The position numbers and the translations under genes were made by a program. Below the pieces are notes generated by a model. It was not told the origin of the DNA. It made no database searches and saw nothing but the letters and a program-made list of their open reading frames with translations. A stretch of DNA of 64,000 nt from Streptomyces capillispiralis (GTDB taxonomy: Bacteria; Actinomycetota; Actinomycetes; Streptomycetales; Streptomycetaceae). Below are positions 30,416 through 54,955 of the stretch, piece by piece; within the stretch, counting starts at the first letter, position 1; every line of letters starts with the position of its first letter. The stretch lies in assembly GCF_007829875.1 (NCBI RefSeq), contig NZ_VIWV01000001.1:7080001-7144000 (forward strand), given 5' to 3'.

Positions 30416-31606
30416 CGGCACCACTTCCTGGGGTGTGACGGGGACGTTTGCGTGTCGCCACACCGTAGGAATCCGCAGGTCAGGCGCACATGTGGCGGGG
30501 CAACATAGTTCGAGGGTCGGCTATGCGTGAGGCCACCATGCCAGCTTGTGGAAAGGCGTCTCAGAGGAACGGCGATGGTCGAAACGAGTGCTGTCCGGGA
30601 CGCGTGGTTCAGGGTGATTGACGGTGTGGTGCTGACTACGCTCGGTTGAACTCGCGCATCTGGGATTGATCGACTCGCAGTCGTTGCGTGGCAGGTGACC
30701 GGACTGAGAGACCGAGTCCGGCCTTGCCGCTCAGTCGCCGTCGGCACGGACAAGGCGCTGCGTCTGGGCGCGGTGCGGGTTGGTCCCGGGAGGTTCTTGG
30801 TCTGCTGGTGGTACACGGCTCAGATGCAGTTTGACCAGCGAAAACAGCCTCGATCGCCACAAGCTACGGAGGGCTGGTCCGGGTATGGCCCGGATCTTGG
30901 TTCGAAGGTTCGTGGTGATGAGCGCTGCTCGCATGTTGCGCTTGTACGACGATGACGGCCTCGGCATTGCTTCGAGAGGCGACGACGGGCCGCAGAAGAC
31001 TGTCCTGACCGGGCTGCACCAAGGCTGGATCCGGCGCTGGCGGAGGCCAGCGGCGGTTTCTTCGGCCCGGCCCTACAACCGTGGCGCTGTCCTCGCAGGA
31101 CCGCGACGACACCGCGTTGAGAATTCGTCCCGTGGGGGCTCGGTTGGCCGAGGCGTCGCGGCGGCGGGTTGATCAGTGCCTACCAGTGCCTCCCGACCCT
31201 GTGACGCCCCCGGGTCATGGTCGCAGAACCACGGCTTGAAGGGGCGGCGCCGGCGCACTATGGCTGTGAGTGCGCTTCCGCTGCTTTTCGCCATTCGTCG
31301 GCAGAGCTCCGCTTGGCGTGACCGGGGCTGTTTCCGCAGGTGAGAGACGGACAGTCACGCGCTGCGTGAGGGCTGGCGGAAAGGGCCATGGTGAACCGCT
31401 TGGGAGCTGAGAAGGGCATTCGCCCAGCTGAGCTGCCTCAGGCTCGGCCCCGTGAATTGGCCTGACGGTGTGGGCCCTCCTGGCCTGATGGCGACTCGAC
31501 CGGGGCGTAGCGCCGTGATGACCCATCAGCTGCTGTCAGTGCCCACTGCTACATCCTTTTGTTGGGATGAGCCGCGCTCCGCGGCCCACCGACGGGAGAG
31601 GGAAAC
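30416..31606. other. 1.2-kb stretch without a convincing gene
   Basis: The first 100 bases should hold the MFS promoter. Beyond that, only short frames with poor codon bias appear on either strand, none with a ribosome site or a recognisable domain. Base composition looks more mixed than to the left. Short hairpins occur (CGCTGGC/GCCAGCG at 31035-31052). I read it as decayed DNA at the boundary between chromosome and island; no tRNA or obvious attachment repeat was found. Confidence 0.5.
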
Positions 31607-31813
31607 ATGTCGAAGGTGCCGGTCCACCGGGTACGCGGTCACATCCGTCGCAATCCGAAGCCCAGGAGCGCCAAGCGCATGAGCGGTTGGATGATTGCCG
31701 GCTTACTGGCCGGCGTGTGGCTGTGGGGGCAGGTGTTCGGGTTCAGTGAGTCCACCGCCACGACACCGCCGACGGATCCGAAGCCGGCGGCCAGCGCGAC
31801 GGCCGACCGCTGA
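31607..31813 (+). CDS. Small single-pass membrane protein
   Basis: 68 residues: a strongly basic N-terminus (HRVRGHIRRNPKPRSAKR), one TM helix (about 25-45, MSGWMIAGLLAGVWLWGQVFGF) and a short Thr/Pro/Ser-rich tail, predicted outside by the positive-inside rule. GGGAGAGG lies a few bases before the ATG. Its TGA overlaps the ATG of the first Mrr-type gene by one base, so it looks like a coupled first cistron of a three-gene unit. No family recognised. Confidence 0.7.
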   Translation: MSKVPVHRVRGHIRRNPKPRSAKRMSGWMIAGLLAGVWLWGQVFGFSESTATTPPTDPKPAASATADR

Positions 31814-32487
31814 TGGGACGGATACGTCTGCGGCGCCCTCGCGGTGCCGCGGAACTGGTCGCAGCGGCTGTAGTCGCCCTGGCTGTGCTCGTCCTGGTGG
31901 CGCGGACGGCGGCCATCGCGGTCGGCACACTGAAGGCGGCCTGGCCTGCCCTGCTGGCTTTCGCTCTGCTCACGGGAGCCGTCGCGGCGTGGCGGATCAG
32001 GCAGGCGGCCACGATGCGGCGTCGGGAGAAGGAGCGGCTGGCCACTCTGCGGATCATGCTCGCGGAGTTCGACACCATGGACGACCGTCGCTTCGAGTAC
32101 GCCCTGCGGGATCTGCTGGTCCGCGACGGCTGGCCGGCCCGCAGAGTGGGTGGCGGCGGCGACCAGGCCGCCGACGTCATCGGTGACCATCCGCAGCGCG
32201 GCCGGATCGTGGTGCAGGCCAAGCACACCCGCGTCGGCGGGAAGGTGGGCTCAGCTGTGATGTACGCGGTGAAGGGGACGGCCGGGCCGGTCCACAAAGC
32301 CGATCACGCTGTCGTCGTCACCAACGGAGCCTTCACACGCGATGCCATGGCGTGGGGCGACCGGCACGGCGTCCACTGGATCGACCGGGAAAAGCTACGG
32401 CGCTGGGCCGAGGACGGTGCCGCTCTGCACGAGCTCCTCGGATGGTCCGCGCGCTCCCGCCCGAGCCGATTCAGGCGTGTGGCATGA
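31813..32487 (+). CDS. Membrane-anchored Mrr-type restriction endonuclease, copy 1
   Basis: 224 residues. Two TM helices (about 14-34, VAAAVVALAVLVLVARTAAIA; 42-60, ALLAFALLTGAVAAWRI) precede a cytosolic Mrr_cat-like domain (about 90-205). The domain begins FEYALRDLLVRDGW and carries active-site residues D121 (ADVIGDH) and Q135-A-K137 (IVVQAKHT), the D...QxK arrangement of Mrr enzymes. The C-terminal strand HWIDREKLRRWAEDG is also typical. Mrr enzymes cut modified or foreign DNA; membrane anchoring could place cleavage at the entry site (inference). Start fixed by the ATGA overlap. Confidence 0.82.
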   Translation: MGRIRLRRPRGAAELVAAAVVALAVLVLVARTAAIAVGTLKAAWPALLAFALLTGAVAAWRIRQAATMRRREKERLATLRIMLAEFDTMDDRRFEYALRDLLVRDGWPARRVGGGGDQAADVIGDHPQRGRIVVQAKHTRVGGKVGSAVMYAVKGTAGPVHKADHAVVVTNGAFTRDAMAWGDRHGVHWIDREKLRRWAEDGAALHELLGWSARSRPSRFRRVA

Positions 32488-32527
32488 CTGGCACAGATCG
32501 TGATCGCTGCCCAAGACGTCTGGAGGT

Positions 32528-33244
32528 GTGGTGTTCGACGAGGACGGGTCGCTCGACCCGCTGCTGAAGTTCCTGCTGTATGCGGTCATCGTGCTGGCCG
32601 TCGGAAAGATGCTCTGGGAGTGGCTCACCGAGGACGTCGGCCAGTGGATCACCGTAGATCTGTGGGGGCTGATAGCCGATCACCCGTGGTGGACCGGGCT
32701 CTTCGTGGTCGGCGGAGTGTCCATGCTGCTCCTGCTCGGCAGAATCCTGTCGTTCCTGTTCGGCGCCAACACCTACGCCAACGCGGACGAAACGTTCGCC
32801 GCTCCCTCTGGCGATGCGATCGAAGCGGACGCGCTGACCTTCAAGATGAAGCAGCTTTCGTCGATGAGCGCGACGGGTTTCGGGCAGGCGTGCACTGATC
32901 TCCTGGCCCGTGACGGATTCCGGCGTCCGAAGCGGGTCGGGGGCGCCGGTGACCTCGGCGTGGACATCACTGCTCGCGATGACCAAGACCGCCTCCTGAT
33001 CGTGCAGTGCAAGCAGTATCAGAGCCCAGTCGGGTCAGGCCACGTGCAGAAGTTCAACGGGACAGCCCGCCCGCACCACGGAGCCGACCTCCCGATCATG
33101 ATCGCGCTCAACGGCTTCACGCAGCCGGCGATCGACTTCGCCCAGCATCACCAGCTCATCCTCATGAGCCGCCCGGAATTGAAACGATGGGCCCACGGCG
33201 AGCACCTCTACGACGTCCTCGGCATCCCAAGCACGACACACTGA
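32528..33244 (+). CDS. Membrane-anchored Mrr-type restriction endonuclease, copy 2
   Basis: 238 residues with the same plan as the preceding gene. Two TM helices (about 14-32, FLLYAVIVLAVGKMLWEWL; 54-80, WWTGLFVVGGVSMLLLLGRILSFLFG) and a linker lead to an Mrr_cat domain with FGQACTDLLARDGF, D146 in GDLGVDITA and Q160-C-K162 in LIVQCKQY, followed by AHGEHLYDVLG. The alignment with copy 1 is visible throughout (LLxRDG, VGGxGD, VQxK, RWAxxxxLxxxLG). GGAGG precedes; GTG at 32528 or the next GTG codon could be the start. 40 bp separate it from copy 1, so the same operon. Confidence 0.85.
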   Translation: MVFDEDGSLDPLLKFLLYAVIVLAVGKMLWEWLTEDVGQWITVDLWGLIADHPWWTGLFVVGGVSMLLLLGRILSFLFGANTYANADETFAAPSGDAIEADALTFKMKQLSSMSATGFGQACTDLLARDGFRRPKRVGGAGDLGVDITARDDQDRLLIVQCKQYQSPVGSGHVQKFNGTARPHHGADLPIMIALNGFTQPAIDFAQHHQLILMSRPELKRWAHGEHLYDVLGIPSTTH

Positions 33245-33629
33245 TGCCAGCGCACACGGAGCTGAGTCCGTCCCGGGAGATCCCGCCTAGTGGCCGGTGG
33301 TCCCGTTTCGGGCTCAGTCCGGTGCGGCGCGTTGTCATGGAGGTCGGCCCGGCCCCTCCCGGCGAAGAGCTCCCCACCGCGAGGCGGCCTTGGGTCGAGA
33401 GATCGTGAGGCGACACACCCACACCTGTGATGACGCCGCGGTCTCCGGCATGCCGGTCCTCCCCAATGGGCTCTCTACCCCAGCCGCTCACCTTCTGAAG
33501 CGCGCTTCCTGACGATCCGTGACCTTGCTGCTCGGCGGGTAGGTACTGAGGCTGCCCCGCAAGGCCGCAGTAGCGGACTCACTGCCTCCGAGGCAGCCGT
33601 CCGGGCTGACCATCAGCATGAGGAACCGA
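33245..33629. other. Gap between convergent genes, nothing recognised
   Basis: 385 bp between the ends of the Mrr operon and the helicase gene. No frame on either strand has both plausible codon use and a ribosome site. It probably holds the two terminators, but no strong hairpin stood out by eye. Confidence 0.4.
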
Positions 33630-36600
33630 TCAGGTAGAGCGCGGCAGGCGGAAGGTGAGCCGGTCGCGGCAGAGGGTGACCTCTATGTCGATTCCGCTGT
33701 CAAGGACGGTGAGCACGTCGATGTGAGCGTCGGCGGGTACCCGCGCCAGGTCCCTGGTTCCGTCGGAGACGGTCAGTGGATCGGGCGTGTCCGTGGCGTC
33801 ATTTCGAATCCGCACCGCTAGAGGTGCCTCGGGAGCAGCGGCGAAAGGAATTACCTGCAAAGAGCAACGCTCGGTGTCCAACAAGTCGTTGATCAGGCTT
33901 CGCTTACGGAATCGGGTGTACTCGAGGAGTTCACCGGTCTCATAGGCGTTGGCGTTGAAGTCGCTCTTCCACCGGTTGATATGGAGATCGGTTAGCCACT
34001 GGCGAAGGTCTTCGGGGCGAATGTGTTGGGTCTTGGCCGAACGGCCAATGCTGTGGGCCAGTCGGCGAGACGTGATACCGGCGTTCAGGAGATTGAGGGC
34101 GTGGGGGGTGTCCACTCCGTGGCGCAGGTGCCATCCGGCCGTGGACGGGAGCCGGAATGTGGCATGAGCGTTTTCAAGGCGGGCGTTGACAAGGTTGATC
34201 AGTGCGCCGAGGGTCCAGGACAGGTAGTGCTCGAAGGTGCTGCTGATATTGCTGACGGTCTGTTCCAGGGCCCACTCGGGCGGAAGCGATGGCAGCCAGT
34301 CGGTGGAGAGGTCGGGGATGGAGCGGCCGCCGATCCACGCCGCCACCGCTGCCGCGATGTCGACAGTGATCTTGTTGCTCCTCCCCCTCGGCTTTTCGGT
34401 GAAGGTCCAGGCATCCTTGGCCTCGGGGAGACTGAGCAGAAGGCTGTAGACGTTGTGCTGATCAAAGAAGTCCAGGGCTTGTTGAAGCGGCCACTCGGAG
34501 GCCAGAGCATCGGCGAGGGCCTCTCCCCAGAAGCCGGGAGGAACCGGTGTGGGAGCTGCCGGATCCCGCAGAAGGAGTACGGTCAGGACTTCTGCAACGG
34601 CGTCCAGGGTGCGGGCGGACCTGATACTGGTCCCAGGGGTGGTCCAACGGCGGCGTGCACCTTCATCGGTAGCTGCGTATTCATCAGCGACCTTGACCGC
34701 GAGACGCATCCAGCGCTGGGCGAGCTCGTCCGGCAATTGGCGCATGGCCAGAAGTCGTTGGACAGCGGCGAGGGGCGGCTGCTCGGTGAGCGTGGGGATG
34801 CGTGAGAGCGCGTCGAGCGTGAACCAGACGTATGAGGCGAAGTCCGCCGCCTGGCTGGCCGCGAGACGTAGGACAGCGTTGGCGCTCTGGGCGATGAGCT
34901 CCTCCGCCTCGGCGAGGGAAGCCAGAGCGTCTTCGGATCCGAGCGCGGAAAGTACGTGAAGCCGGTCGGCTCCAGGCTGAAGCAGGCTATAGTCCGCCGT
35001 ACGCGGATTGCTGTGACGGGTGAGTAGGATCCAGCCTTCACTTTCGCGGCCGGCGCGGCCAGCTCGCCCGACGGCGTTAAGGAGTTGGGCAGGTGGCATC
35101 TGAGGTCGTCCCGACCAGCGGTGGGGTCTGCCGTCGTCGACGTCGCTGTGGATGACAACAGAGCGCACGGGCAGATTGACGCCGTCGGTGAGGGTGCTGG
35201 TGCAGCAGATCACGTTCAGTTTGTCGTCACGAAGCGCATCTTCGACGGCGCGCAAGACTTCGGCCGGGAGCCTGGCGTGATGGTAGGCGACGCCGTGGCG
35301 CGCACAATCAATCAGGGGGTGCTCGGCTCCCAGGGTATCGGCGAGGAATTCGGCCAGTTGTGCGGCGGGAGCGTGTTCGGGCAGAAACTCAGCGACGGCG
35401 CGGGCCATCGTCTTGGCCGAGTTCCGTGAGTCGCAGACCACCAGGACGCTGCCAGCTCGTGCCAGGTGGGCGGCTCCGAAGGCGAACAAGGTGCGGTTAG
35501 GAACAGATGCGGGTGCTTTGGCACTGGTGTCGCCGGGCGTCTTTTCCAGGTAGATGCGTGTGCCCAGAGGCTCTTCCGGCCGGGTGGTCATCGAGTACGT
35601 CTGGCCGGTCGTGGTGGGACGGACACTGATTCGTAGGCCCATCGGCACTCGGAGCTCAGTGGTTCGCGTGCGGTTCGGGTGCGGCGGAAGTGTCCTGCGC
35701 ACCTGCTGGTCGCGAAAGAGTTCAGGGGTAAGCAGTCCGTGTAGGCGTCGCGGTCCGCGCCATGCGTCGGTGAACACCACTTTCTCTGGGGGCTGTTCAT
35801 CATCGAGCCAGGCCGCGAGTTCACCGTGGTTTCCGACGGCCGCGGACAGCAACACCAGGCGTGGCGGGCGGGGATGCGCCTGACAGAAGGCGAGGAGCCC
35901 TTCGAGGAGGAATCCACGTTCTCCTTGCTGAATGTGATGAGCCTCGTCGATCACGATCAGTCCAACACCGTCCAATGCGGCATGGGCATCTTGGCGCAAG
36001 GCGTGCATCAGTCGCTCAGGAGTGGAGATCTCCACGTCGCTATCGGCGCTGGTGAGGGGGGCTCCGGAGGCCGGAAAGTCCGGCTGGTCCGCAGCGAGAG
36101 TCCGGCCCAGGACGCGCAGGCGCGAGCGTAGTGCCTGACGCATCTCACGGCCCAGACTTCGCAACGGTGAGACGTACAGCACGCGTTCCGCGTGGTCGGC
36201 GAGGTGGGCGCAAATGATGAGCTGCGCCATCAGGGTCTTGCCGGCGCTGGTGGGCACACTGATCAGCAGGCGGCGGGTGTTCTCATCCAGCGGGTTGGCC
36301 TTCTTGAGCAGGGAACGTTGCGGCGGCCACAGCGTCATCACCGGTGGATCCGACAGAGCGAAGGTCCGCGCGAGGGCTGGCGGAGATCCGTCGGGCAATA
36401 GCCCCTGCAGGCTGTCGGCGGCCAGATCTCCCAAGAACTCCAGCAGGTGTGCTGCCACCCAGCGTGCCGAGCGGTCGGCCATGCCCGCTTCCCCGGTGAC
36501 GACGTCGCGCAGCCGGGTCCGAGCCTGCTCCAATGCCGGCGCGTCGGCCCGGGTGAGATATCGCGTCAGGTACGCACAGGCGTCGACGACCGCTTCGGCG

Positions 36601-37250
36601 GGTCCATAGACGGTGCCGTGCAAGTTGGGAGCGTCGGCGAGCTGGGCGAGATCTCTGAACTGAGAACGCCAGCGGCGCAGCAGTTGGGCGAGACGGCGAC
36701 GCTGCATCCCCAGGAACGCCACTGCGGCTTCGACGGCGAGTGTGTCGAGGTGGCTCGACAGGGCCGCCTCAGTGATCAGAAGGGAGTCTGTCTGGTCGAT
36801 CTGGCGGAAGACCGCGGTGGCGTTGGGGTCCTGCTCGCAACGCCGGTAGCCGATCTGTGCGCCGAAGGCCATGGCCAGGCGCCGGGCTCGGATCACTTCC
36901 GGGGGCTGCGCGGATGATGGACGTTCTGCTTCCGCGTCGACAGAGAATTCGGCGGCGCGGATCTGGTGCCGGGGATCGCCCAGAGCCAGCTCGAGGATGT
37001 GGGCGCTGACGGCAAACGCGTGTCTACGCCGTACCGGGTCATACAGCTCAGTGCCCTCTGCCGCGGCGGCCACCCCGTGCAGGTACCAGGCGGTGCCGAG
37101 AAGCTGATCCGGCACCTCCGAATCGGCACGGATCGCTGCGACTTCGATGTCGGCGATCAGAGCGGCGAGTTGTTCGGGGGAGGGCAGGATGCCGGTCTCA
37201 TGGACACCCAGTGCTTGAGCCAGGATCTGTGGATCTACAGTGCGCTCCAC
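33630..37250 (-). CDS. SF2 DEAD/DEAH-box helicase, HamB-like (Hachiman-type candidate)
   Basis: 1,206 residues. A helical N-terminal region (1-300) leads to the RecA-like domains: Walker A SVPTSAGKT (about 332-340), motif Ia YVSPLRSL, motif II IDEAHH (DEAH, about 430), motif III LLSAAVG, motif V TSTLTDGVNLP and motif VI NAVGRAGRAGR (about 725-735). The C-terminal 450 residues are mostly helical. The PTSAGKT and GRAGRAGR forms are those of Ski2/Brr2-like helicases, the class used by HamB. GTG with AGGAG 6 nt upstream; the start overlaps the upstream nuclease-like gene by 16 bp, arguing for a two-protein system. Confidence 0.75.
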   Translation of the reverse strand: MERTVDPQILAQALGVHETGILPSPEQLAALIADIEVAAIRADSEVPDQLLGTAWYLHGVAAAAEGTELYDPVRRRHAFAVSAHILELALGDPRHQIRAAEFSVDAEAERPSSAQPPEVIRARRLAMAFGAQIGYRRCEQDPNATAVFRQIDQTDSLLITEAALSSHLDTLAVEAAVAFLGMQRRRLAQLLRRWRSQFRDLAQLADAPNLHGTVYGPAEAVVDACAYLTRYLTRADAPALEQARTRLRDVVTGEAGMADRSARWVAAHLLEFLGDLAADSLQGLLPDGSPPALARTFALSDPPVMTLWPPQRSLLKKANPLDENTRRLLISVPTSAGKTLMAQLIICAHLADHAERVLYVSPLRSLGREMRQALRSRLRVLGRTLAADQPDFPASGAPLTSADSDVEISTPERLMHALRQDAHAALDGVGLIVIDEAHHIQQGERGFLLEGLLAFCQAHPRPPRLVLLSAAVGNHGELAAWLDDEQPPEKVVFTDAWRGPRRLHGLLTPELFRDQQVRRTLPPHPNRTRTTELRVPMGLRISVRPTTTGQTYSMTTRPEEPLGTRIYLEKTPGDTSAKAPASVPNRTLFAFGAAHLARAGSVLVVCDSRNSAKTMARAVAEFLPEHAPAAQLAEFLADTLGAEHPLIDCARHGVAYHHARLPAEVLRAVEDALRDDKLNVICCTSTLTDGVNLPVRSVVIHSDVDDGRPHRWSGRPQMPPAQLLNAVGRAGRAGRESEGWILLTRHSNPRTADYSLLQPGADRLHVLSALGSEDALASLAEAEELIAQSANAVLRLAASQAADFASYVWFTLDALSRIPTLTEQPPLAAVQRLLAMRQLPDELAQRWMRLAVKVADEYAATDEGARRRWTTPGTSIRSARTLDAVAEVLTVLLLRDPAAPTPVPPGFWGEALADALASEWPLQQALDFFDQHNVYSLLLSLPEAKDAWTFTEKPRGRSNKITVDIAAAVAAWIGGRSIPDLSTDWLPSLPPEWALEQTVSNISSTFEHYLSWTLGALINLVNARLENAHATFRLPSTAGWHLRHGVDTPHALNLLNAGITSRRLAHSIGRSAKTQHIRPEDLRQWLTDLHINRWKSDFNANAYETGELLEYTRFRKRSLINDLLDTERCSLQVIPFAAAPEAPLAVRIRNDATDTPDPLTVSDGTRDLARVPADAHIDVLTVLDSGIDIEVTLCRDRLTFRLPRST

Positions 37251-38155
37251 ACCAGCTCCTGTACGTGCTCGGCGAATTCCGCGAAGTTGTCGATGGCGAT
37301 GACGAGCCCTTCCAGCGCACCGGGATGTGTCAGGTGCGGGATGTGAGTGTGCGAGGTGGTGAACGCCTCGGTGGGTGCTGCAGAGGTGTTGGTGGCCACG
37401 CTGACTCCTGCGCCGCTACTGGGGTGGCCGTCGATCCACATCTCGACCATCTGACTGACGAACGCACCGAGATCACCCGCGAACTCGCGGTCTGCCCAGG
37501 CCGTCTGGGACAGCACGTACGCGGCGCCATTCTCGCTGAGCTGCTGCCAGGCGCCGGTCACGGTGGCCGTGATCGAGTCGTCCTTGCCGGTGTACTTCTT
37601 CATTTCCCAGAGCCGGAATACCAGTTCCGGTCCCGAGCCGCTTCGGGTACGCCGGATGATCAGCCCGTCGCCGCCGCCGTCGTTGACGTTCACTTTCGGC
37701 TCAGCCAAGTACTCAGTGGTTCGACCCGGCAGGTCAGGCGTCTCGAGAGCAAGTAGGTACCACAGCCACTCACCGACATGGCCGGGGACGCCGTGGTGCG
37801 GCTTTGCGTTTGGCTTCGTCTGAGGCTTGAAGACGGGACTGGCGAACTCCTTGATCAAGCGCTGCTGGCGCGGGTCGAGTGCTGCTTCACCAAGCGCCAC
37901 TGCTCGCCAGAGAGCGAAGACATGCGGCAACTTGCGGCAGCGCTGTCGCATCACCGCCTCGGCGACGATCCAGGCGATCGCTGCGCGCTCTTCTGGGACG
38001 AGTCCGGCCAGCGAGGCGAACTCCCAAGGGCACGGCTGCTGCACACCATGGCGCTGTCGCTTCGTGAACGCGGTGATCCGATTGCCGTGCCGTGCGGCGA
38101 GCTTCTGACCTATAGAAGGGGGGACGCGGCCACCATTGCCACCTGCAGTCGCCAT
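37235..38155 (-). CDS. Predicted PD-(D/E)XK nuclease partner of the helicase, HamA/DUF1837-like
   Basis: 306 residues. The N-terminus is basic. Residues about 120-210 carry a nuclease-like core: GEWLWYLLALE, EYLAEPKVNVNDGGGDGLII and FRLWEMKKYTGKDDSITA. Here a glycine/Asp-rich strand is followed by E184-M-K186 and a Tyr, the spacing seen in HamA (DUF1837) proteins. The C-terminal part is helical. The order (nuclease gene first, helicase second, short overlap) is that of Hachiman and AbpAB operons. I did not verify similarity with a profile; a different nuclease-helicase defence pair is possible. Confidence 0.6.
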   Translation of the reverse strand: MATAGGNGGRVPPSIGQKLAARHGNRITAFTKRQRHGVQQPCPWEFASLAGLVPEERAAIAWIVAEAVMRQRCRKLPHVFALWRAVALGEAALDPRQQRLIKEFASPVFKPQTKPNAKPHHGVPGHVGEWLWYLLALETPDLPGRTTEYLAEPKVNVNDGGGDGLIIRRTRSGSGPELVFRLWEMKKYTGKDDSITATVTGAWQQLSENGAAYVLSQTAWADREFAGDLGAFVSQMVEMWIDGHPSSGAGVSVATNTSAAPTEAFTTSHTHIPHLTHPGALEGLVIAIDNFAEFAEHVQELVWSAL

Positions 38156-38635: not shown

Positions 38636-38743
38636 TCAAGGGTCCGATGCCGGTGCACATCGACCGCGCTCGAAGGCTCCTTCCCGCTCAGTAGGATCAC
38701 CGGCAGAGCGGGGCGGGAGGCGCACGGGGTGGGGAGCAGCGGT

Positions 38744-41700
38744 ATGGCAGCGGGGGGTCGGCGAGTGTCGGCGGAGCGGGTGCGGGAGCGCCGTAGGGCC
38801 GCGGTGCGCAAGCGCGTTCACGACAAGGCACTGGTCGAGGTGCGGGGCTGTCTGCGGGACTGGGACGACGGCCGGGACGCGGCACGCGAGGCCAAGGCGG
38901 TGGCCGAGACGATCATCGCGCCCGAGTACGAGGGTCGGGTGCTCATCGAGTTGTTGCAGAACGCGCACGACGCGCACCTGGCCGGCGCCGCCGACGGACG
39001 TATCGAGATCCGGCTGGACGAGGACGAGGGTGAGCACGGCACCCTCTATGTGGCCAATGGCGGCAAGCCGTTCGGCGGCAAGAACTTCAAGGACCTGTGC
39101 AGCATCGCCCTGTCCAGCAAGCGTGCCGACGCCGGGATCGGCCACAAGGGCGTGGGCTTCAAGAGCGTGCTGCACCTGTGCGACGCGCCCGAGATCTACA
39201 GCGTGGCCAGGGAGGGATCCCGGGTCCCCGACGGGTTCACGTTCCGGTTCGCCCGGCTCGATGACTACGACGCGCTCGCCCGGGAGGTGGCACCCGAACG
39301 CGTCGGTTTCGCCGACTACTTGAAGGAGAACCTGCTCACGCTGAAGGTGCCGGTCTTCCTGGAGGAGGCACCGAAGAGTGTCCACAACTTCGTGCGCCGC
39401 GGCTTCGTCACCGTCGTCCGTCTGCCGCTGAAGTCGGCCGACGCACGCTCGGCCGCCGGGGCGCAGGTGCGGGAACTCATGGACGACAGCGCCCCGTTCG
39501 AGCTGTTTCTTGACCGTCTGGAACGTGTCCGGCTGGAGCGGCGGGTCGCAGGGAAAACTCGGGGCAAGACGTATGACCGCCAGGTGGAGGTGCTGCACCA
39601 GGCCCGCGGCCTGAAGGTGCAGCAGGTCACCTTGCGCCGGCGGATGCGACTGATCGTCGTCTGCGGGAAGGCCAACCCGGACCGCGCCCGGGAGGCACTC
39701 ACCGCGTCGATCGAGAAGAGCGGGATGCGACGCGACTGGATGGCCTGGGAGAAGAAGGCCGAGGTACGCGTCGCCGTACCGGTCACCGATCCCCTGCGGG
39801 AGGGGCGGCTCTACGCCTTCCTGCCGATGGGCGAGCAGATTCCGGCGCCCGTGCGCGGCTTCGTCCACGCCCCGTTCTTCGCCGAGATGAACCGGCGCTC
39901 GTTCAACGAGGCGGTGCCGTGGAACGGCCTGCTCCTCGACACCGTGGCCGAGACGTGTGCCCGCGCGGTGCTCGCCACGGCCGAGGGACGGGCCCCCGTT
40001 CCCGCCGGAGCGCTGGTCGACCTGATGTGCTGGCGGTCGCCCACAGCACTGACCCGGCTCGCCTCCTCCTTCCAGCGGCTCGGTCACGGGATCGCCGAGG
40101 TGCCGCTCATCCCTGTGATCGCCACGGCGTCCGGCACGCGCACCTCCCTGCACCGGGCAGTGCTGTGGGAACGCAAAGAACACGCCACGGCTTTCACCCC
40201 GCACGCGGTCGCCGCCAGTGGGGTCACCGAACTCCTCGACCCGCAGCTGCATTCCGTACGGCTGCGGCGGCTGGTGTCTCTCGCGAGAAGTGTGGGCACG
40301 CGCCTCGAACCGCCGCCGGAGCGCCTCGCCTCCTGGGCGGAGCGGCTCGCTGAGGCCGCCGCCCGCGCCCCCTTCGACCCTGGATGGTGGGCGGACTTCT
40401 ACTACGACCTCTCGCAGGAGTTCCCCGACGGCTCGGACCTGACCGGCAAGCGGATCATCCTCACATCCGAGTCGGCGTTGCCGGCACCGGCTGGCAGGGA
40501 AGGCGTCTTCTTCGACCGCGAGTCCCCGCGGGGCGGCCCCCTTCCGGCCCTGCCCGACGGGCTGTCCGGCCGTCTGCACTTCGTGCACGAGGGCATCGCC
40601 TGGACCGGCAAGGGCCGCAAGCGCAGAGCGCAGGGCCGCACCTGGCTCAGGACCGCCAGCCTCGTCCACGAGTACGGAGCCGACCGGGTGCTCGAGGTCG
40701 TGGCCGCGGCACTGAGGGCGGACGGAGAGGGCGGAGTCGAGGACGGCGTGCGCCTGGCCTGCCTTCGCTACGCCTGCGCGGTATCCCACGCGCTGGAGAC
40801 CGAGGGGCGCAGGGCTCCGCAGCTGAAGGATCTCCGCGTACCGACCCGCGGCGGCTGGCAGGAGGCGAGCCGCGCCATGTTCGGGCCGGGATGGCCCGGT
40901 GAGCACTCTTCCATCGATGACACTCTGACCCGGTTCCTGGAGCGCGCCCGGGGACTGTCGTCCGTACTCACCCAGACGGAGCAGCGGCTCCTCCCGCGCC
41001 CCGAGGAGCTGTGCGGGGACACGCTCCCCGTCGAAGCCATGCGGCGCTTCCTCGAACGGCACGACGTCGCTCACGGCCTGCGTCCCCGGCACGAGGTCTT
41101 TCGCACCGAAGTGCGAGGCCAGGACCTCAACTGGCCCGCCCGGTTCTGGGTTCCGAACCGGCGGGATCTGCTGCCGCAGTGGCGGACGACCGCCGAGCGC
41201 TGGCCGAACCGGCGGCGGGTCGGTTACCTCAAGGTGGCCTACCACTCACGCGCCCATTCCGCGGACGTGCTGCCCGGACAGGACGACTACGCCGCCTTCG
41301 GCGAGGAGGACCGCAGGCTCTACGCGGAACTCATCGTGCACGGCCTCGCCTTCTCCTGGCTCGACTCCGCGCTGGAGATGCATTTCGTACGCCACACCGA
41401 CTCCGCGGGCACCCCCTGGCCCACTCCGCTGGCCGCCTTCCTCGCCCAAGCGCCGTGGATCCCGCAGACCACCGTCCCAGGCGCTCCCGCTGAGGGGATC
41501 GTGTTCGCCACGGCGGGCCGGGCCTGGTGGTGGCAGGGCACACAGTCCCCGCCCCCTTTCCTCAGCGTGGTGCCCGCGACCTTGCGCAGCAGGCGGTCCG
41601 CCAAGCTCGTGGCACGCCTCGGCCTGCTCGGCATCCGCTCCTGGGACGACCCCGGCACCGCGCTCGACCGGCTCAGCCATCTGCCCAACCTGGTGCAGGC

Positions 41701-44092
41701 CGGCCCGCACCTGCGCGAAGGCAGGCACGCGCACGAGATCGGGCAGGAGTACGAGAAGGCGTGGGCCCAGCTGCTGCCCGCGAACGGCGGCACACGCACC
41801 ACCGACGGCGGGCCTGCCACGCCACCGCACCGGCTGCTGGTCCACCGGGCCGGTGCACTCGAACCCCTGGACGCGGCGGAGACGGACGAGCCGGTCTTCG
41901 TCCCGGACCCGGACGGCGCCCAGAACCGGGCCCTCCTGGACCGCGTCCCGGTACCTGTGATCCCGATCAGGGACAGGGCGCTGGGCGCCCGGGTCCACGC
42001 CTTCCTCGACCAGGGGACGACGTTCGACGTCCAACGGTGCGGCGACGCCACACACGACATCCAGGCCGACGGGCTGCCCGTCCGTGAGGCGATGCGCCTG
42101 CCGCTGACCCAGTACGCGGGCCCCTGGCTGCTCACCCTGGTCGCGGCCCTGGTGGAGTTCGACGAGGAGCGCGCGTCCCGGACGGAGCCCGTGACCGTGG
42201 CCGAGGCGACCACCCTGCTGCGCCGCTGCGAGGTGACCGTGGCCGACGAGGCCGTCGTCTGGATCGCCGGACACCGTCTCACCGAGAACGGCACGGACCG
42301 CGCCCTGCTCCACCCACACCCCGACCGGCCCTGTGTCGTCGTCATGCACAACGGGGCGCGCACCGGCTGGCGGGTGCTCCGTACCGCCGCACCCGCCCTG
42401 GCCGCTCTCATCCGCGCGCCCTACCTCGCGGACATCCTGTGGAAGGCACTGACCCGGCTGGAGGAGCGGGACCTGAAGACGGACGACGTTTCCGAGGAGG
42501 ATCTCGCGGACGTCCTGGAGCTACGGCAGCACCAGCTGCGCGTAATCCTCGCCGAGCGCGCCTCGCAGCGCTCCGGCAGCGCGCGGCTCGTGCCGCTCCT
42601 CGCCTGCCTCTACCTCGACCTCGCGGAGGAGCTCCAACAGCGCGTCGAGGAATTCCCCGACCGTGCAGCCCTCCTGGCCTGGCTCACCGCCCGCACCGGC
42701 GCACCCGACGCGGAACGCCTCATGCGGCTCCTCGACGACGACGATCCGGAACGGCAGCTGAGGGCCCTGTCCGTAACCCTGGCCGAAGCCAACCGCGCCT
42801 GGCGCGCACTGAGTCTGCCGCAGATCGACAACACCGACCGGCACGAACGGCAGTTCGCGACCTGGCTCCAGCGAAACCGTCCCGCACTCGCCGAGCGAAT
42901 CAGGGACGCCCACGCCGACGTCCACCGCTCCGGCCGGTCCCTGGCCGCCTACGTGCGCCTGCGGGGCCTGCCCACACTCGCGCCGGACCCGACCTGGCAC
43001 ACGACACTCTGGGACCTCACCGACCAGCTCCTCCAAGCTCACGCGGACGCCTGGCTGACCCGATCGCTCCCCGCACAACCGCCGACGTCCCGCGCGCTGC
43101 CGCCGCTCACCGAGGTCCGCGAAGCATCCACCACCGCTGTCCACCAGCACCTGCCGCGTCTACGGCAGCTGATCCAGGAATGGCAGCGTCTGCACCCGAC
43201 GAGCCACACCGTGGTGCCGCCGCCCCCGCAAGAGGTGCTACGAGCGCTGGACGACGAAGGGCTGCTGGACTTCGAGGTCCTATCCACGAAGGCGTTGATC
43301 ACCTGGCTCAGCCACCACGGCCACTGGCCGACGGACATGCCCCTGTCGGACCGGCGCGCCCAACTCGGGCTGTCCCCGACGAGCTCGTCGGCGCCTGCCG
43401 GGAACAGCGGCACGGCCGCGGGCACAGGCCAGTCCGGAGCACCCGTGCCCGGCCCCCAAGTGGCTCTGAACGGCAGGCTCGTCCCGGCGGGCCCCGACGA
43501 CCTGGCCGCACTGGCCCGTGAGGTGGCCGCGGACCTGACACCGGAACAACGCGCCACTTCGGCCACGGCCGTGACCACGCTCGCGCCCCGCATTCCCCGG
43601 CCGCGCACCCCGTCACAGCCCGGAACGGGATCGCAGGGCGGTTCCTACCAGGCCGCGGGCAACGACCAAGACCGCACCGTGCCGGTGGGCGTAGCGGGAG
43701 AGGCGGCGGTGGCCGCCTGGCTGCACAAGCAGTTCGGCGTCGAACCACAGGACTCATGGAAGTCCAGCCTGCGCGTGCACGGACTCGCCGGAGCACAGCC
43801 GGGGGACGACCGGCTCGGCTACGACTTCCTCATCCACGACGGCGACGCGACCTACCTCTACGAGGTCAAGGCGTCCACGGGCGACAGCGGAGAGATCATC
43901 CTGGGCGAGTCGGAGGTACGACGCGCTTCCCGGCTGGCCCCGGGCGAGACGTACTTCATCGTGTACGTCTCCCATGTCTTCGACCGCGACCGCCGCGCCA
44001 TCACCGTCCTGCCCAACCCATTCGGCGCCCCGGACCTCGCAGGCTACGAACTGGTTAGCACCCAGCTGAGGCTCCGCTTCAACATTGGCTGA
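38744..44092 (+). CDS. Giant GHKL (sacsin-like) ATPase with C-terminal DUF3883 nuclease-like domain
   Basis: 1,782 residues. The N-terminus is a sacsin/Hsp90-type GHKL ATPase: N-box ELLQNAHDAH (N73, D76), G1-like LYVANGGKPFGGKNF and G2 GIGHKGVGFKSVLHL (about 130-145). A long mixed region without recognised domains follows (about 300-1630). The end (about 1645-1782) is DUF3883-like: GVAGEAAVAAWLHKQFG, D1694 in LGYDFLI, E1707-V-K1709 in YLYEVKAS, then a receptive strand TYFIVYVSH. The D...ExK set suggests a PD-(D/E)XK nuclease. ATG at 38744 has GGGGAG 7 nt upstream; a GTG 15 bp earlier is weaker. Such ATP-gated effector-like proteins are frequent in defence islands; function here is inferred. 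Confidence 0.8.
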   Translation: MAAGGRRVSAERVRERRRAAVRKRVHDKALVEVRGCLRDWDDGRDAAREAKAVAETIIAPEYEGRVLIELLQNAHDAHLAGAADGRIEIRLDEDEGEHGTLYVANGGKPFGGKNFKDLCSIALSSKRADAGIGHKGVGFKSVLHLCDAPEIYSVAREGSRVPDGFTFRFARLDDYDALAREVAPERVGFADYLKENLLTLKVPVFLEEAPKSVHNFVRRGFVTVVRLPLKSADARSAAGAQVRELMDDSAPFELFLDRLERVRLERRVAGKTRGKTYDRQVEVLHQARGLKVQQVTLRRRMRLIVVCGKANPDRAREALTASIEKSGMRRDWMAWEKKAEVRVAVPVTDPLREGRLYAFLPMGEQIPAPVRGFVHAPFFAEMNRRSFNEAVPWNGLLLDTVAETCARAVLATAEGRAPVPAGALVDLMCWRSPTALTRLASSFQRLGHGIAEVPLIPVIATASGTRTSLHRAVLWERKEHATAFTPHAVAASGVTELLDPQLHSVRLRRLVSLARSVGTRLEPPPERLASWAERLAEAAARAPFDPGWWADFYYDLSQEFPDGSDLTGKRIILTSESALPAPAGREGVFFDRESPRGGPLPALPDGLSGRLHFVHEGIAWTGKGRKRRAQGRTWLRTASLVHEYGADRVLEVVAAALRADGEGGVEDGVRLACLRYACAVSHALETEGRRAPQLKDLRVPTRGGWQEASRAMFGPGWPGEHSSIDDTLTRFLERARGLSSVLTQTEQRLLPRPEELCGDTLPVEAMRRFLERHDVAHGLRPRHEVFRTEVRGQDLNWPARFWVPNRRDLLPQWRTTAERWPNRRRVGYLKVAYHSRAHSADVLPGQDDYAAFGEEDRRLYAELIVHGLAFSWLDSALEMHFVRHTDSAGTPWPTPLAAFLAQAPWIPQTTVPGAPAEGIVFATAGRAWWWQGTQSPPPFLSVVPATLRSRRSAKLVARLGLLGIRSWDDPGTALDRLSHLPNLVQAGPHLREGRHAHEIGQEYEKAWAQLLPANGGTRTTDGGPATPPHRLLVHRAGALEPLDAAETDEPVFVPDPDGAQNRALLDRVPVPVIPIRDRALGARVHAFLDQGTTFDVQRCGDATHDIQADGLPVREAMRLPLTQYAGPWLLTLVAALVEFDEERASRTEPVTVAEATTLLRRCEVTVADEAVVWIAGHRLTENGTDRALLHPHPDRPCVVVMHNGARTGWRVLRTAAPALAALIRAPYLADILWKALTRLEERDLKTDDVSEEDLADVLELRQHQLRVILAERASQRSGSARLVPLLACLYLDLAEELQQRVEEFPDRAALLAWLTARTGAPDAERLMRLLDDDDPERQLRALSVTLAEANRAWRALSLPQIDNTDRHERQFATWLQRNRPALAERIRDAHADVHRSGRSLAAYVRLRGLPTLAPDPTWHTTLWDLTDQLLQAHADAWLTRSLPAQPPTSRALPPLTEVREASTTAVHQHLPRLRQLIQEWQRLHPTSHTVVPPPPQEVLRALDDEGLLDFEVLSTKALITWLSHHGHWPTDMPLSDRRAQLGLSPTSSSAPAGNSGTAAGTGQSGAPVPGPQVALNGRLVPAGPDDLAALAREVAADLTPEQRATSATAVTTLAPRIPRPRTPSQPGTGSQGGSYQAAGNDQDRTVPVGVAGEAAVAAWLHKQFGVEPQDSWKSSLRVHGLAGAQPGDDRLGYDFLIHDGDATYLYEVKASTGDSGEIILGESEVRRASRLAPGETYFIVYVSHVFDRDRRAITVLPNPFGAPDLAGYELVSTQLRLRFNIG

Positions 44093-50388: not shown

Positions 50389-50707
50389 CTGTGGGCTTCT
50401 GACCAGTCGTGATGGCCTACGGGCGGTCCTGATCTTGATCAGACGTCCTCATGTCATGTTCGCTCGAAGGGGATGTGCCCGGTGGGCTGCTCGATGCGGT
50501 GGATCTCCGCGCGGCTTGCATGCGGCCCTGGGCGCCAAGGGGCGGTGGGTCGACATGGGCCGGGATTGTCAGTGGTGAGTCGTAGCCTCTTGGGAGCGAT
50601 GTGGTGCGTGTTCGGCACGGAGCCGAGCTGGGGCGCAGCGGGCGTGTGTGGCTTCGCGGCTGAGCCCTCCTCCGGAAGTGGCGCACCACTGGGAGAGAGG
50701 ACCAGGG

Positions 50708-51724
50708 ATGGCCGCGCTTCCCACCCAATTCGGAGAGGCCCTGAGCGCTGTCGAGCCAGATGAGGACGCTGCTCACGCGCAAGTCGCACACGCGCAGGTA
50801 TCGAAAGTGCTGGAGGGTGACGAACGCCTTCGTGGGCTTGGTGTCGATCCGTTGCTCATCGGGTCGTACAAGCGGCACGTTTCTATCAAGCGGGTGAAGG
50901 ATGTCGATGTCTTCGCACGGCTGACCAAAGCCGACGGGTCTCTCAGGCCAGGGGCAATTCTTGATCACGTTGCCGATATTCTTGGCGTGGCGTTCCCGGG
51001 AGACGTGGAGCGTCAGCATCGCTCGGTCAAGGTCGACTTCCCCGACTACGACCTGTCGGTAGACGTGGTGATCGCACGACCGTGTGGAGATCACTGGGAA
51101 ATTCCTCAGCGGATCGAGGAAGACGGCCGGGCGCGGTGGGTGGAGACCAACCCGACCAAAATGACGGAGCTGACAACTGCGGCGAACAAGTCATTCCTCC
51201 TGTATGACGACGACGATGACAGCGGCGTCTATGTCCGTATCGTCAAACTCGTTCGACAGGTGCGCCGTACGTGGGTCAATGACCAACCGGGTGGCTACTA
51301 CTTCGAGGTCCTGACCTACCACGCCTTTCAGGAGTTGCAGCCGGACGAGAAGACGGTCGCCGCATACCTCACTCGCATCCTGCGACGGATCGCCGAGATG
51401 CTGCCGGATCACGTGGATGAAGGACCGGTCGATCCCACATTGCCCGATAAGACGATCAAGACGAAGGCCACGGCAGAGCAGATTCAGGCAGCGGCAGACC
51501 AGATGACGAAGGCCGCAGATCTCGCCGAGGCGGCACTTGGCGAAGAAGATCGGTGTGTGGCAGCTGTGAAGTGGCGTCAGCTGCTGGGTAGGACTCAGAA
51601 CACTGAGGTACCGGAGGATGTCTTTCCCCTGCCCGACTATTGCAACGCGGACGGAACGACCAAGAACAGGAGTGTCATCAAGGGTGCGCTGGCAGTCCCG
51701 GCGGGGCAGGACCGCTACGCGTGA
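50708..51724 (+). CDS. CD-NTase, cyclic oligonucleotide synthase of type II CBASS
   Basis: 338 residues. Nucleotidyltransferase signature: IGSYKRHVSIKRVKDVDVFA gives GS(x)n with metal ligands D65 and D67, and the third Asp is D119 in YDLSVDVVIA. The C-terminal helical OAS-like domain follows (HAFQELQPDEKTVAAYLTRIL and later). On phage infection such enzymes make a cyclic di- or trinucleotide second messenger; the base identity cannot be predicted here. The C-terminus (GALAVPAGQDRYA) is short and exposed, as needed for Cap2-mediated conjugation. ATG at 50708 follows GAGAGAGGA. The stop overlaps the cap2 start (GTGA). Confidence 0.92.
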   Translation: MAALPTQFGEALSAVEPDEDAAHAQVAHAQVSKVLEGDERLRGLGVDPLLIGSYKRHVSIKRVKDVDVFARLTKADGSLRPGAILDHVADILGVAFPGDVERQHRSVKVDFPDYDLSVDVVIARPCGDHWEIPQRIEEDGRARWVETNPTKMTELTTAANKSFLLYDDDDDSGVYVRIVKLVRQVRRTWVNDQPGGYYFEVLTYHAFQELQPDEKTVAAYLTRILRRIAEMLPDHVDEGPVDPTLPDKTIKTKATAEQIQAAADQMTKAADLAEAALGEEDRCVAAVKWRQLLGRTQNTEVPEDVFPLPDYCNADGTTKNRSVIKGALAVPAGQDRYA

Positions 51725-53286
51725 GCGGGGCCGATGGTTGGGACGCTGACCTGCTCCGCGAGGGCTTGGTAGCACGTGACTTCACCGACGACGGTGTACG
51801 CCTGCGAGGACCTGTTCCCTGGCGCGGTGCTGGTGGCGCCGAAGCCCGAGCGCGCGTGGAGATCGAAGTGGACGAACGCTTCCCCTTTTATCCACCGCAG
51901 GTCCGACTTCTTGACCCGGGAGCACAGCTGGAGGTCACCTTTCACGTCGACCGTGCAGCTCGTCCTGGAGTCTCCGGCAACTTGTGCTTGTGGGACGACG
52001 CATGGCCGGCCGACATAGCACCGTGGACTGATCCCGACGAGTTGCTGTCCCGAATCGCTGGCTGGCTCGAGCAGACAGCGGCTGGATGGCCGGGAGACAA
52101 CGTTTGTGATCTTGAGCGGTACCTCGAAGCAGACCCGACGATGTTCGTGCTCTACGACGCCGAGAACCTGGCTCGCCTCAAGGGCCACGCTGTGCGCACC
52201 CGCCGCGGCTCCACGAGCGGCACTGTGGAGGTCTGGAATACCCCGCACCGTTTGAAGAAACGGGCAGGGCGCCCTGGATTCAGCCGGGCCGACAGGCAGC
52301 TCGCGTGGGTGGAGGATCTGGGACAGCTCCACAGACCTGTCCGGTCCTGGGCCGATATTCACGACGTACTCGGGGAGCAGGCGGCTTCGGCAGAGCAACT
52401 CATTGCAGCTGGCGTGGTGAACCTGGTGCTGCTCCGCTACCAACGCGGTGACCAGCAGTCGGTCTTGGCCCTGACGGTGAAGTACGCGGCCGATGAGATC
52501 AAGGTGCGAGCCTGCGAGAGCGCGGACACCAGCAGTTCCACACGCCAGATGCGGGCCGGCACGATGGCGCCACAGCTCGCAGACGTACCCATCGCCATCG
52601 TCGGATGCGGCGCCATCGGATCGTTCACGGCCGCTCTGCTCTTCCGCGCGGGGGCCCGGCGTCTCACCCTTATTGATCACGAACGACTACGCCCCGGAAA
52701 CGTCGTACGACACCTCGCCGGCCTCGAACAGGTCGGCGCCTGGAAAACAGACGCGGTCCGGAACTGCCTCACGGCCATCGACCCGGCGATCGACGCAGTG
52801 CGGGCCCTGACAACGGCAATGACCTCGGCCGATTACGCCAAACTGCTGGTCCAGCACCACCGAATCGTTGTGGACGCGACAGGAAGTGCACGCGCCACGA
52901 GCATGCTCGCCTTCGCTGCGAATACCACCAACGCCGAAGCGGACAAGGCGGTTGTGACAGTCTGTGCGCAACGCGACGGAGATGTCGTACGCGTCGACCG
53001 ACTTCCAGCCCGGGGTGTAGAGATCTTTCTCCCCCCGTTGCCTGCTCTCGATGATCAAAACGAACTGCGAGAGAACGGCTGCGGGAGCCCTATTTCGCGT
53101 ACCCCACCAACAGCGGTCGTCGCCGCTGCCGAACTGGCTTGCTGCGTGGTGCTCGACGAGTTGGCAGGACACCGCAAGCTCCCAACGTCCGTCGCGTTTG
53201 TGAGCCGTCCTCAACCAGAGCAGCAGTACACACACATCGGGCTGGTGCTCCCGGGGTCCATGCCGCAAGATCAGGTGGTGAAGTGA
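51721..53286 (+). CDS. cap2: Cap2, E2-E1 fusion protein of type II CBASS
   Basis: 521 residues. N-terminal E2-like domain (1-150) with RFPFYPPQVRLLDPG and C89 in SGNLCLWDD as the likely E2 cysteine. C-terminal E1/ThiF domain (about 285-521) with the ATP site IAIVGCGAIGSFTAALL, LIDHERLRPGNVVRHLAG, and C454 in ENGCGSPI as the likely E1 cysteine. Cap2 attaches the CD-NTase C-terminus to target molecules and primes its activity (known for the family). The GTG start overlaps the CD-NTase stop and the stop overlaps the cap3 start, so all three are translationally coupled. Confidence 0.92.
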   Translation: MSGADGWDADLLREGLVARDFTDDGVRLRGPVPWRGAGGAEARARVEIEVDERFPFYPPQVRLLDPGAQLEVTFHVDRAARPGVSGNLCLWDDAWPADIAPWTDPDELLSRIAGWLEQTAAGWPGDNVCDLERYLEADPTMFVLYDAENLARLKGHAVRTRRGSTSGTVEVWNTPHRLKKRAGRPGFSRADRQLAWVEDLGQLHRPVRSWADIHDVLGEQAASAEQLIAAGVVNLVLLRYQRGDQQSVLALTVKYAADEIKVRACESADTSSSTRQMRAGTMAPQLADVPIAIVGCGAIGSFTAALLFRAGARRLTLIDHERLRPGNVVRHLAGLEQVGAWKTDAVRNCLTAIDPAIDAVRALTTAMTSADYAKLLVQHHRIVVDATGSARATSMLAFAANTTNAEADKAVVTVCAQRDGDVVRVDRLPARGVEIFLPPLPALDDQNELRENGCGSPISRTPPTAVVAAAELACCVVLDELAGHRKLPTSVAFVSRPQPEQQYTHIGLVLPGSMPQDQVVK

Positions 53287-53869: not shown

Positions 53870-54955
53870 GTGGCGTCGCAGAGAGTGACTTGGTTGCTGC
53901 GGTTCCTGACATCCGCACAGGGGCTGTTGACCATCACCGCATCCGCAGCGGCCGGCCTCGCCGTGGGACTGCTGCCCAACCTTGCGCAAGCAGTGCCAGA
54001 GGTGGGAGGACACCTGTGGTGGCTCGCGGTCGTCGCCGTTGCCGCCGTACTGGTTTTCGCCGTGTCCGCCACACTGCTTCACGGCAAAGAAGGCGTCGGC
54101 ATCGTCGTCATCGTGAGCGAACGAGGGTGGGATGTCACACGGCTGCGCGCACTGCGCGCCGACGCCCTGCAGCGGCACCCCAGCTGCTTTACCGTCAACG
54201 TCTCCGAACTGCTCGGAAGCCAAGAACAGGATCCCGGCGACGCACACGACCGTGTTCGCTTTGCACACCGCGTCCTCCAGGCCCGGATCCTCGAGGCGGA
54301 GCAGCCCTACGAGAACGTCTCCCTCTATGTCACCGCGCGCCATCACGATGCGTACCGACTGGGCGAGCTCCTCCGGGACCAGCGCCACACCTCGCTCCGG
54401 CTGATGAGGCAGTCCCACGAGGACGGCGTCGGCATCTTCGAGGCTCTCCGCCTACACAGCGATCTGACCCGTCAGCCCGATACCAAAGACTTGCAGACAC
54501 TGCGCGACGTGCTGGCACGAGACCCAGAGACCGACGGCCCAGAGTGGCTGTCCTTCGACCGCCCCGACGGAGACGCAGCGCGACGGATTGCGCTCATCCT
54601 GCCGATGGCCGGACACCTCGCCGGCACCCGGGAGAAGGCACTTGCTGCCGCACGCGCGGGCCAGCATGACGAATACCTTCTCACCGGATCCCCGGCAGAC
54701 CGAGAACACTGCGTCGGCGCTCTGATCTTCGCCACCCGGTCGGGCAACGTCCCCGATCGACGGGACGTCTACGAGGCACTGGTTCGATATGTCCACCACC
54801 ATTGGAATCTCAAGGTGACGGAGATGCTCGCGACACAGGGCACGGCGCTGCGAGGTTGGATCTTCACTGACGGCCCGACCGAGATCGCCCTCACCCTGGG
54901 ATACCTACTGGGACGACAGTCTGACCTTGTCCCCTGGCGGAGAGAAAGCAGCTGA
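53870..54955 (+). CDS. CBASS effector: two-TM protein with SAVED domain (Cap14-like)
   Basis: 361 residues. Two TM helices (about 17-37, LLTITASAAAGLAVGLLPNLA; 48-70, LWWLAVVAVAAVLVFAVSATLL) sit before a cytosolic domain. That domain begins GVGIVVIVSERGWDVTRLRAL and ends GWIFTDGPTEIALTLGYLLGR, with the middle RIALILPMAGHLAGTREKALAAA. This double CARF-like arrangement is the SAVED ligand sensor. By analogy with Cap14, ligand binding would assemble or open the membrane part and depolarise or permeabilise the inner membrane. GTG start behind a GGGGAA-type site. Placed last in the operon, as effectors often are. Confidence 0.8.
   Translation: MASQRVTWLLRFLTSAQGLLTITASAAAGLAVGLLPNLAQAVPEVGGHLWWLAVVAVAAVLVFAVSATLLHGKEGVGIVVIVSERGWDVTRLRALRADALQRHPSCFTVNVSELLGSQEQDPGDAHDRVRFAHRVLQARILEAEQPYENVSLYVTARHHDAYRLGELLRDQRHTSLRLMRQSHEDGVGIFEALRLHSDLTRQPDTKDLQTLRDVLARDPETDGPEWLSFDRPDGDAARRIALILPMAGHLAGTREKALAAARAGQHDEYLLTGSPADREHCVGALIFATRSGNVPDRRDVYEALVRYVHHHWNLKVTEMLATQGTALRGWIFTDGPTEIALTLGYLLGRQSDLVPWRRESS

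Follow-up and report, generated by a model that had tools for sequence, protein, structure and literature searches.

A conserved gene pair encoding a small membrane protein and a predicted membrane-anchored Mrr nuclease, with an optional third gene and an upstream RecA-NDp-like element, in Streptomyces

Three adjacent genes, here called g1, g2 and g3, contain a real and conserved two-gene core (g1–g2) followed by an optional third gene, and the unit is unnamed in the libraries and literature that we searched. A conserved RecA-NDp-like element upstream of g1, which goes beyond the first-pass annotation of this DNA and is new here, adds what from its sequence looks like a regulatory layer. The genes lie in a window (the whole stretch of DNA analysed, 64,000 nucleotides, G000:C1:7080001-7144000) of an 8.43 Mb genome, with the following features.

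31194..33298, + strand: duplicated block of 2.1 kb, 96.1% identical by blastn to G000:C1:7281544-7283657 of the same genome
31533..31555, + strand: RecA-NDp/PafBC-like element, CTGTCAGTG-N8-TACATC, with 55 nt from its TA to g1
31607-31813, + strand: g1, 68 aa, a single predicted transmembrane (TM) segment and a basic N-terminal motif, VRxHxRRNP
31813-32487, + strand: g2, a predicted 2-TM hairpin followed by an Mrr_cat nuclease domain; E95, D121, Q135-A-K137
32528-33244, + strand: g3, a second predicted 2-TM Mrr_cat protein; D146, Q160-C-K162; Gly119 in place of a conserved Glu

The first-pass annotation had described these reading frames as a small membrane protein and two tandem membrane-anchored Mrr nucleases, and we recovered all three where it had placed them, with a 1-base overlap between g1 and g2 and a 40-base gap between g2 and g3. 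In Pfam, Mrr_cat (PF04471) matched g2 (E = 5.8e-20, 72 bits) and g3 (E = 1.3e-23, 83.7 bits) above the curated cut-off of 21 bits and did not match g1; the PD-QxK residues are conserved, and the catalytic positions assigned earlier (D121 and Q135-A-K137 in g2, D146 and Q160-C-K162 in g3) were verified. Other Pfam matches of g2 and g3 at E 0.01 were Mrr_cat_2, NA-iREase1, RRG7 and a sub-cutoff DUF3742. The two proteins can be aligned across the catalytic domain at ~33% identity, as had been noted. Hydropathy gave one, two and two segments for g1, g2 and g3, respectively, in agreement with the earlier TM counts and with membrane anchoring of both nucleases as a prediction; the g1 peak is modest (1.46) and passed only the looser cut-off. 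Basic residues flanking the ends of the g2 TM segments suggest that its Mrr domain is cytoplasmic.

The proposal that the unit had escaped cataloguing held as well, as no PADLOC, Pfam or NCBIfam model was found that covers the whole of it. g1 had no match to a known family in Pfam at 0.01, NCBIfam or PADLOC; an Imm17 match at the loose Pfam cut-off (E = 0.041, in 1 of 18 rows) was treated as noise. The PADLOC model PDC-S02 (334 positions) matched the nuclease part alone, with best stretches of 188-302 for g2 and 169-300 for g3; as neither protein matched the whole profile, membership was rejected. The literature searched, including an exact-phrase search and with subscription journals mostly outside it, contained no published description of the unit.

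The AlphaFold2 model of g2 (pLDDT 85.2) has two long N-terminal helices (residues 12-42 and 44-77) followed by a restriction-endonuclease core. AF1548 is the closest match to this predicted core (Z 15.5, rmsd 2.1, 111 residues aligned). Among restriction enzymes, MspJI (4f0p; Z 11.3, rmsd 2.9 over 120 aligned residues) and AspBHI (Z 11.2) come nearest, and EndoMS and Hjc are also near. The g3 model is poorer (pLDDT 70.4) and gave no Foldseek match at E 0.001 or better, and a search with sequence profiles gave no solved structure at E 0.01. In an alignment of 99 g2 rows, from which seven broken or odd rows had been excluded, Glu95 is present in 99/99 and Asp121, Gln135 and Lys137 each in 98/99. 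The named loci and the genomes from which such rows were drawn are partly redundant, with 88 of 99 rows distinct for g2, 25 of 29 for g3 and 74 of 90 for g1.

A scan of 84,980 species genomes yielded 102 relatives, of which the best 80 were examined as named loci. In 66 of these 80, g1 precedes g2, and at 59 of those 66 loci, which include Microbispora and Nonomuraea, the two genes share 1 or 4 bases. Actinomadura and Planomonospora also have g1, and there the called ends of g1 and g2 do not overlap. The named relatives are mainly from Streptomyces, with further g1-bearing loci in Streptacidiphilus, Kitasatospora, Actinomadura, Microbispora, Nonomuraea and Planomonospora. On a g2 tree of 82 rows, which includes 67 of the 80 named loci, the presence of g1 requires 4 changes versus a mean of 21.1 when shuffled, and is thus clustered. 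Ratios of dN/dS across the computed pairs were 0.07-0.49 for g1, 0.18-0.47 for g2 and 0.14-0.34 for g3. Because g1 stands before g2 in 66 of 80 loci and these ratios span 0.07-0.49, we conclude that the unit is more than a chance arrangement. At one locus (L120) the g1 motif, as RYYRRGHWV, is joined in frame to g2, a natural fusion that hints at, and does not prove, an association of the two proteins; the start of another g2 relative (L032) resembles this fusion, and its catalytic residues are lost.

The three-gene unit described in the first-pass annotation did not survive as such: the g1–g2 part of the order stands, and an obligatory three-gene unit was rejected, since no g3 was found at 60 of the 80 named loci and since g3 occurs without g2 in 3 of the 14 genomes, among 295 of the genus, that carry it. 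One of these three (G025) has a possible 29-residue g2 remnant, and the g3 protein of another (G113, the third being G019) is divergent. In the 20 named loci where g3 does follow g2, it is full length in 17, fragmentary in L104 and L121, and frameshifted in L058. At L060, in S. griseoincarnatus, each of the three genes is full length. Ten g3-bearing rows form one side of a branch with support 97 in the 82-row tree. The conserved unit is the g1–g2 pair, and g3 is an optional add-on. A heterodimer of g2 and g3, of the kind proposed earlier, is therefore not obligatory, as g2 mostly occurs without g3 in these loci.

Within the genus, 226 of 295 genomes have some g2 match at E 1e-10, so TM-Mrr-like proteins are common, and at least 25 of the 295, this genome included, match g2 at 55% identity or more over 200 residues; among the matches listed, that in G009 is a 73-residue fragment. 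Of the 26 contexts in the close group, 24 have g1. A g3 with 48% identity or more is present in 12, and two of these g3 genes are frameshifted. In a phylum sample of 396 genomes, 12 (again counting this one) match at 1e-15, all but one from the same genus. A search for g1 in 150 genomes gave matches in 18. It was not found there with other effectors: two strong matches that lack a full g2 (L190 and L191) are followed by a g2 remnant or by the end of a contig, and a further two, which are weak, are doubtful. In Streptomyces sp. NBC_01456, a plasmid carries g1 at a place where no gene is listed (L174, 7070-7279); the gene table of that plasmid is incomplete, and g1 may be annotated in the original record.

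The window copy of the unit departs from its relatives in two genes. Its g3 has Gly119 in the first catalytic helix, at the position of g2 Glu95, where 28 of 29 aligned g3 rows (25 distinct, with 3 further rows excluded) have Glu. We infer a catalytic role for this conserved Glu; COG4741, another PD-(D/E)XK family, has a motif written E-(V/I)D-E(V/I)K (PMC1189080). The window g3 is probably impaired or weakened, so the functional unit in the window is at most g1–g2. The window g1 has also lost two residues of [DEN]G[FY], the motif before VRxHxRRNP. At the second copy of the block, g1 is complete with its motif and g3 is frameshifted. Thus, neither copy is a clean three-gene unit; the first-pass annotation had noted neither the changes in the window g1 and g3 nor the second copy. 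Among close relatives, broken genes include g2 in L115 and L123 and g3 in L058. These lesions would suit a decaying relic with little or no function in this genome, a reading that we consider somewhat unlikely, in that g2 is full length in both copies and the g1 motif is intact in the second. The window g2 and its counterpart at the second copy (L006) differ by 4 synonymous and 6 non-synonymous changes, too few to judge.

The first 210 bases of g3 are identical in both copies (L006 9889-10098 and window 32528-32737), and the remainder differs at many places, which looks like recombination between the copies. An open reading frame adjoining the second copy is integrase-like by eye and has no Pfam match at 0.001.

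Alignment of the regions before g1 revealed a single conserved element. The pattern YTGTCRGTG-N7..9-TA occurs within 250 nt before g1 in 42 of 66 g1 loci, its TA ending 50-79 nt from the g1 start; a search of all 80 loci (1,876,628 bases, both strands counted) gave 45 matches, only 3 of which are elsewhere. Where g1 is missing, the element was found in 0 of 14 loci within 450 nt upstream of g2. With the spacing fixed at N8 (first base Y), the match is exact in 41/66 g1 loci and holds with at most one mismatch in 51/66, as compared to 1 exact match and 4 with at most one mismatch in 590 random 250-nt control windows; allowing one mismatch, the other 15 g1 loci still lack the element. Damage promoters have the published consensus tTGTCRgtg-8 nt-TannnT (PMC5656591). 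At g1 loci the upstream half (TTGTCRGTG) and its 8-nt spacing to TA agree with RecA-NDp promoters, and the −10 half, TACACC or similar, departs from TAnnnT, with the final T present at 2 of 51 g1 sites versus 29 of 30 ordinary sites of this genome. In mycobacteria, such promoters are reported to be driven by PafBC (PMC8223512), which is activated by single-stranded DNA (PMC11804915), and RecA-NDp promoters have been reported for S. coelicolor recA and SCO6735 (PMC5087735). PafBC control of the unit is uncertain because its −10 half differs from that of ordinary sites; the element is RecA-NDp-like, and such control is plausible.

A search of 101 genomes for an extended form of the element (with CTGCTACACC, ending in TACACC) gave 4 hits, each of them at a g1 locus; the second copy is one of these, and the window copy, which ends in TACATC, is not. 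That this form was found only at this unit, together with the atypical −10 half, would fit a constitutive guard at the site of DNA entry. Such a guard would owe its specificity to position alone, and the element would be a promoter or operator peculiar to this unit, with no link to damage; SNIPE, reported to cut phage DNA at injection from the membrane (PMC13190303), offers a precedent. We regard this account as unlikely, given that the element follows the RecA-NDp consensus (PMC5656591) in its upstream half and in its N8-TA spacing.

A damage-type element upstream of a small first gene that overlaps the nuclease gene could also mark a self-directed system. In such a system, damage or infection would lead g2 to cut the chromosome of its own host (abortive or compartment death), and g1 would be a membrane inhibitor that restrains g2. 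Mrr-dependent SOS phenotypes and nucleoid condensation, with regulation by oligomeric state, are described for E. coli (PMC12707154). A self-directed system strikes us as distinctly unlikely; two loci, L065 and L079, have a full-length g2 and no convincing upstream g1, which is incompatible with an obligatory inhibitor.

In this genome the element pattern occurs 41 times, versus once for the reversed control. Of these sites, 30 were inspected; 5 of the 30 have no called downstream gene, and several downstream genes are not repair-like. Ten downstream genes, hand-picked as recognisable so that their proportions are not a rate, include nine repair or replication genes by Pfam: RecA, two UvrD-type helicases, exonuclease VII (xseA), RecQ, a RadA-like ATPase (named from sequence), DnaB, UvrB and UvrA. 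The tenth is a macrodomain protein by eye, with no Pfam match. Two adjacent WYL genes ~2 kb after the Pup ligase gene (PafA) are candidates for PafB and PafC, a placement that mirrors that of pafB/pafC in mycobacteria. The 41 RecA-NDp-type sites contrast with a LexA study in which an initial search suggested a lack of conservation of the PafBC motif in S. venezuelae (PMC9380542).

The sharing of a promoter-type element with recA, uvrA, uvrB, recQ and xseA, and a predicted fold that is near EndoMS and Hjc too, raise the prospect of a membrane-located repair or recombination nuclease that serves the damage response and not defence. Repair genes are usually core. The unit, by contrast, is patchy, as the at least 25 close g2 matches in 295 congeneric genomes indicate, and it is duplicated, plasmid-borne and at times decayed, so we judge a repair role very unlikely.

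Downstream of the unit, the window contains the following genes and one further motif.

33630-38155: a HamB/PDC-M23B-like helicase and a 306-aa partner, following the unit
38729-44092: sacsin-domain protein, 1787 aa; weak NOV_C match at its C-terminus, slightly below cut-off
50566-50588: complete RecA-NDp motif, TTGTCAGTG-N8-TAGCCT, ~120 nt before the CBASS cyclase ATG
50708-51721: CBASS cyclase (SMODS), ATG at 50708
51640-53286: E1-E2 open reading frame, after the CBASS cyclase
53870-54955: putative membrane effector, no family found
55188-58124: Ser/Thr kinase-domain protein
60736-63936: type ISP restriction-modification protein

No family in Pfam, NCBIfam or PADLOC was found for the 306-aa partner at the cut-offs applied. 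The helicase and its partner are absent at the second copy, between the unit and a 71-bp remnant from the start of the sacsin gene, which that copy keeps. Elsewhere, relatives of the unit stand near defence systems (Ssp at L055, pPIWI-RE at L057), and L042 has an SbcCD-like/helicase cluster with homologues in L050 and L053. PADLOC (1e-20) was run on 101 neighbour proteins from 20 g2 loci and, as a control, on 134 proteins encoded in 20 stretches of the same contigs, with edge-crossing genes excluded and the window itself outside the test set. Among the matches listed, the g2 neighbours gave SspD, PprPIWI, a type IIG-like helicase (2), LmuB (2), PbeA (2) and kinase models, and the control stretches gave JetA, LmuA, mad3 (2) and kinase models. 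There was no clear excess over matched controls among these matches, and we make no claim of defence-island enrichment.

In 72,556 plasmid records, g2 matched in 31 at 1e-20 and g3 in 158 at 1e-5. Most of these matches are partial, as those covering 80% of the query number 0 for g2 and 5 for g3. g2 was unmatched in 50,697 phage records, viral contigs gave 2 distant matches, and no tRNA was found as an integration site.

The best reading of these observations, in our view, is a nuclease aimed at incoming or damaged DNA. Its fuller form, which we put forward tentatively and with less than even confidence, is that the unit may be a mobile accessory operon, with g1–g2 as its core, for a damage-inducible, membrane-tethered nuclease directed against entering DNA. 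Single-stranded or damaged DNA would activate PafBC, which would turn on the RecA-NDp-like promoter, as the element suggests. g1 and g2 would then be translated together, coupling being suggested by their observed overlap, and g1 would sit beside g2 in the membrane, as the predicted TM segments, the overlap and the one natural fusion hint. The Mrr domain, placed in the cytoplasm by the charge of the TM flanks, would cut DNA near the membrane, most likely incoming phage or conjugative DNA. The tether would limit damage to the chromosome, the basic cytoplasmic motif of g1 may position or restrain the nuclease, and g3, as an accessory nuclease, would widen or double the cut.

A broader proposal, which we think possible while leaning against it, is that streptomycetes wire a membrane-bound restriction device to the RecA-independent (PafBC, single-stranded-DNA-sensing) damage response, so that foreign or damaged DNA that produces single strands induces a nuclease at the site of entry. 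If so, the damage response would double as an inducible programme against mobile elements. A complete RecA-NDp motif (50566-50588) also stands upstream of the CBASS operon of this island, which suggests that CBASS is under the damage response. Mrr would become a second nuclease class, besides GIY-YIG, that distinguishes foreign DNA from self by place rather than by sequence or modification, and its tiny partner, g1, is easily missed. The unit would also bear on a RecA/LexA-independent response in Streptomyces, which according to the LexA study remains to be demonstrated (PMC9380542). That response is directly testable in this genome because of its 41 element sites, including those upstream of recA, uvrA and uvrB.

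Among known systems, the element itself resembles RecA-NDp/PafBC promoters in its TTGTCRGTG-N8-TA and differs in its −10 half, which is TACACC in place of TAnnnT (PMC5656591, PMC5087735). For the proteins, COG4741 is similar by description, with an N-terminal membrane helix and a PD-(D/E)XK nuclease predicted to be cytosolic, and has been predicted to be a 'membrane-associated guardian against foreign DNA'; as described, it is a YraN-type nuclease with an ExK motif, unlike the unit (PMC1189080). The MspJI family (4f0p) is, with AspBHI, the nearest restriction enzyme by catalytic-domain fold, whereas no SRA domain was found in the unit by Pfam and a predicted TM anchor stands instead. EcoKMrr and the type IV Mrr enzymes share the Mrr_cat domain with PD-QxK; the account of EcoKMrr consulted describes an N-terminal winged helix and leaves a membrane anchor unmentioned, whereas g2 and g3 have predicted TM helices there (PMC12707154). 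No winged-helix family was found in g2 or g3 at E 0.01 (Pfam), their N-termini being hydrophobic helices, and assignment of the unit to EcoKMrr-type enzymes was rejected on that ground. SNIPE, a membrane nuclease, is reported to cut phage DNA as it is injected and to select DNA by place (PMC13190303). It is anchored in the inner membrane and its catalytic domain lies on the cytoplasmic side, an arrangement that for g1–g2 is predicted only (PMC13190303). SNIPE combines DUF4041 with GIY-YIG, in contrast to the actinobacterial g1–g2 unit with its Mrr/PD-QxK domain and separate small TM partner, and the words 'Mrr' and 'Streptomyces' do not appear in the main text describing it (PMC13190303). By Pfam, no GIY-YIG domain was found in g2 or g3 (E 0.01) and DUF4041 had no match in g1, g2 or g3. 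To judge by domain content, SNIPE is a mechanistic precedent for the g1–g2 unit and no relative of it. By analogy, the unit perhaps acts like SNIPE, with the catalytic domain of EcoKMrr.
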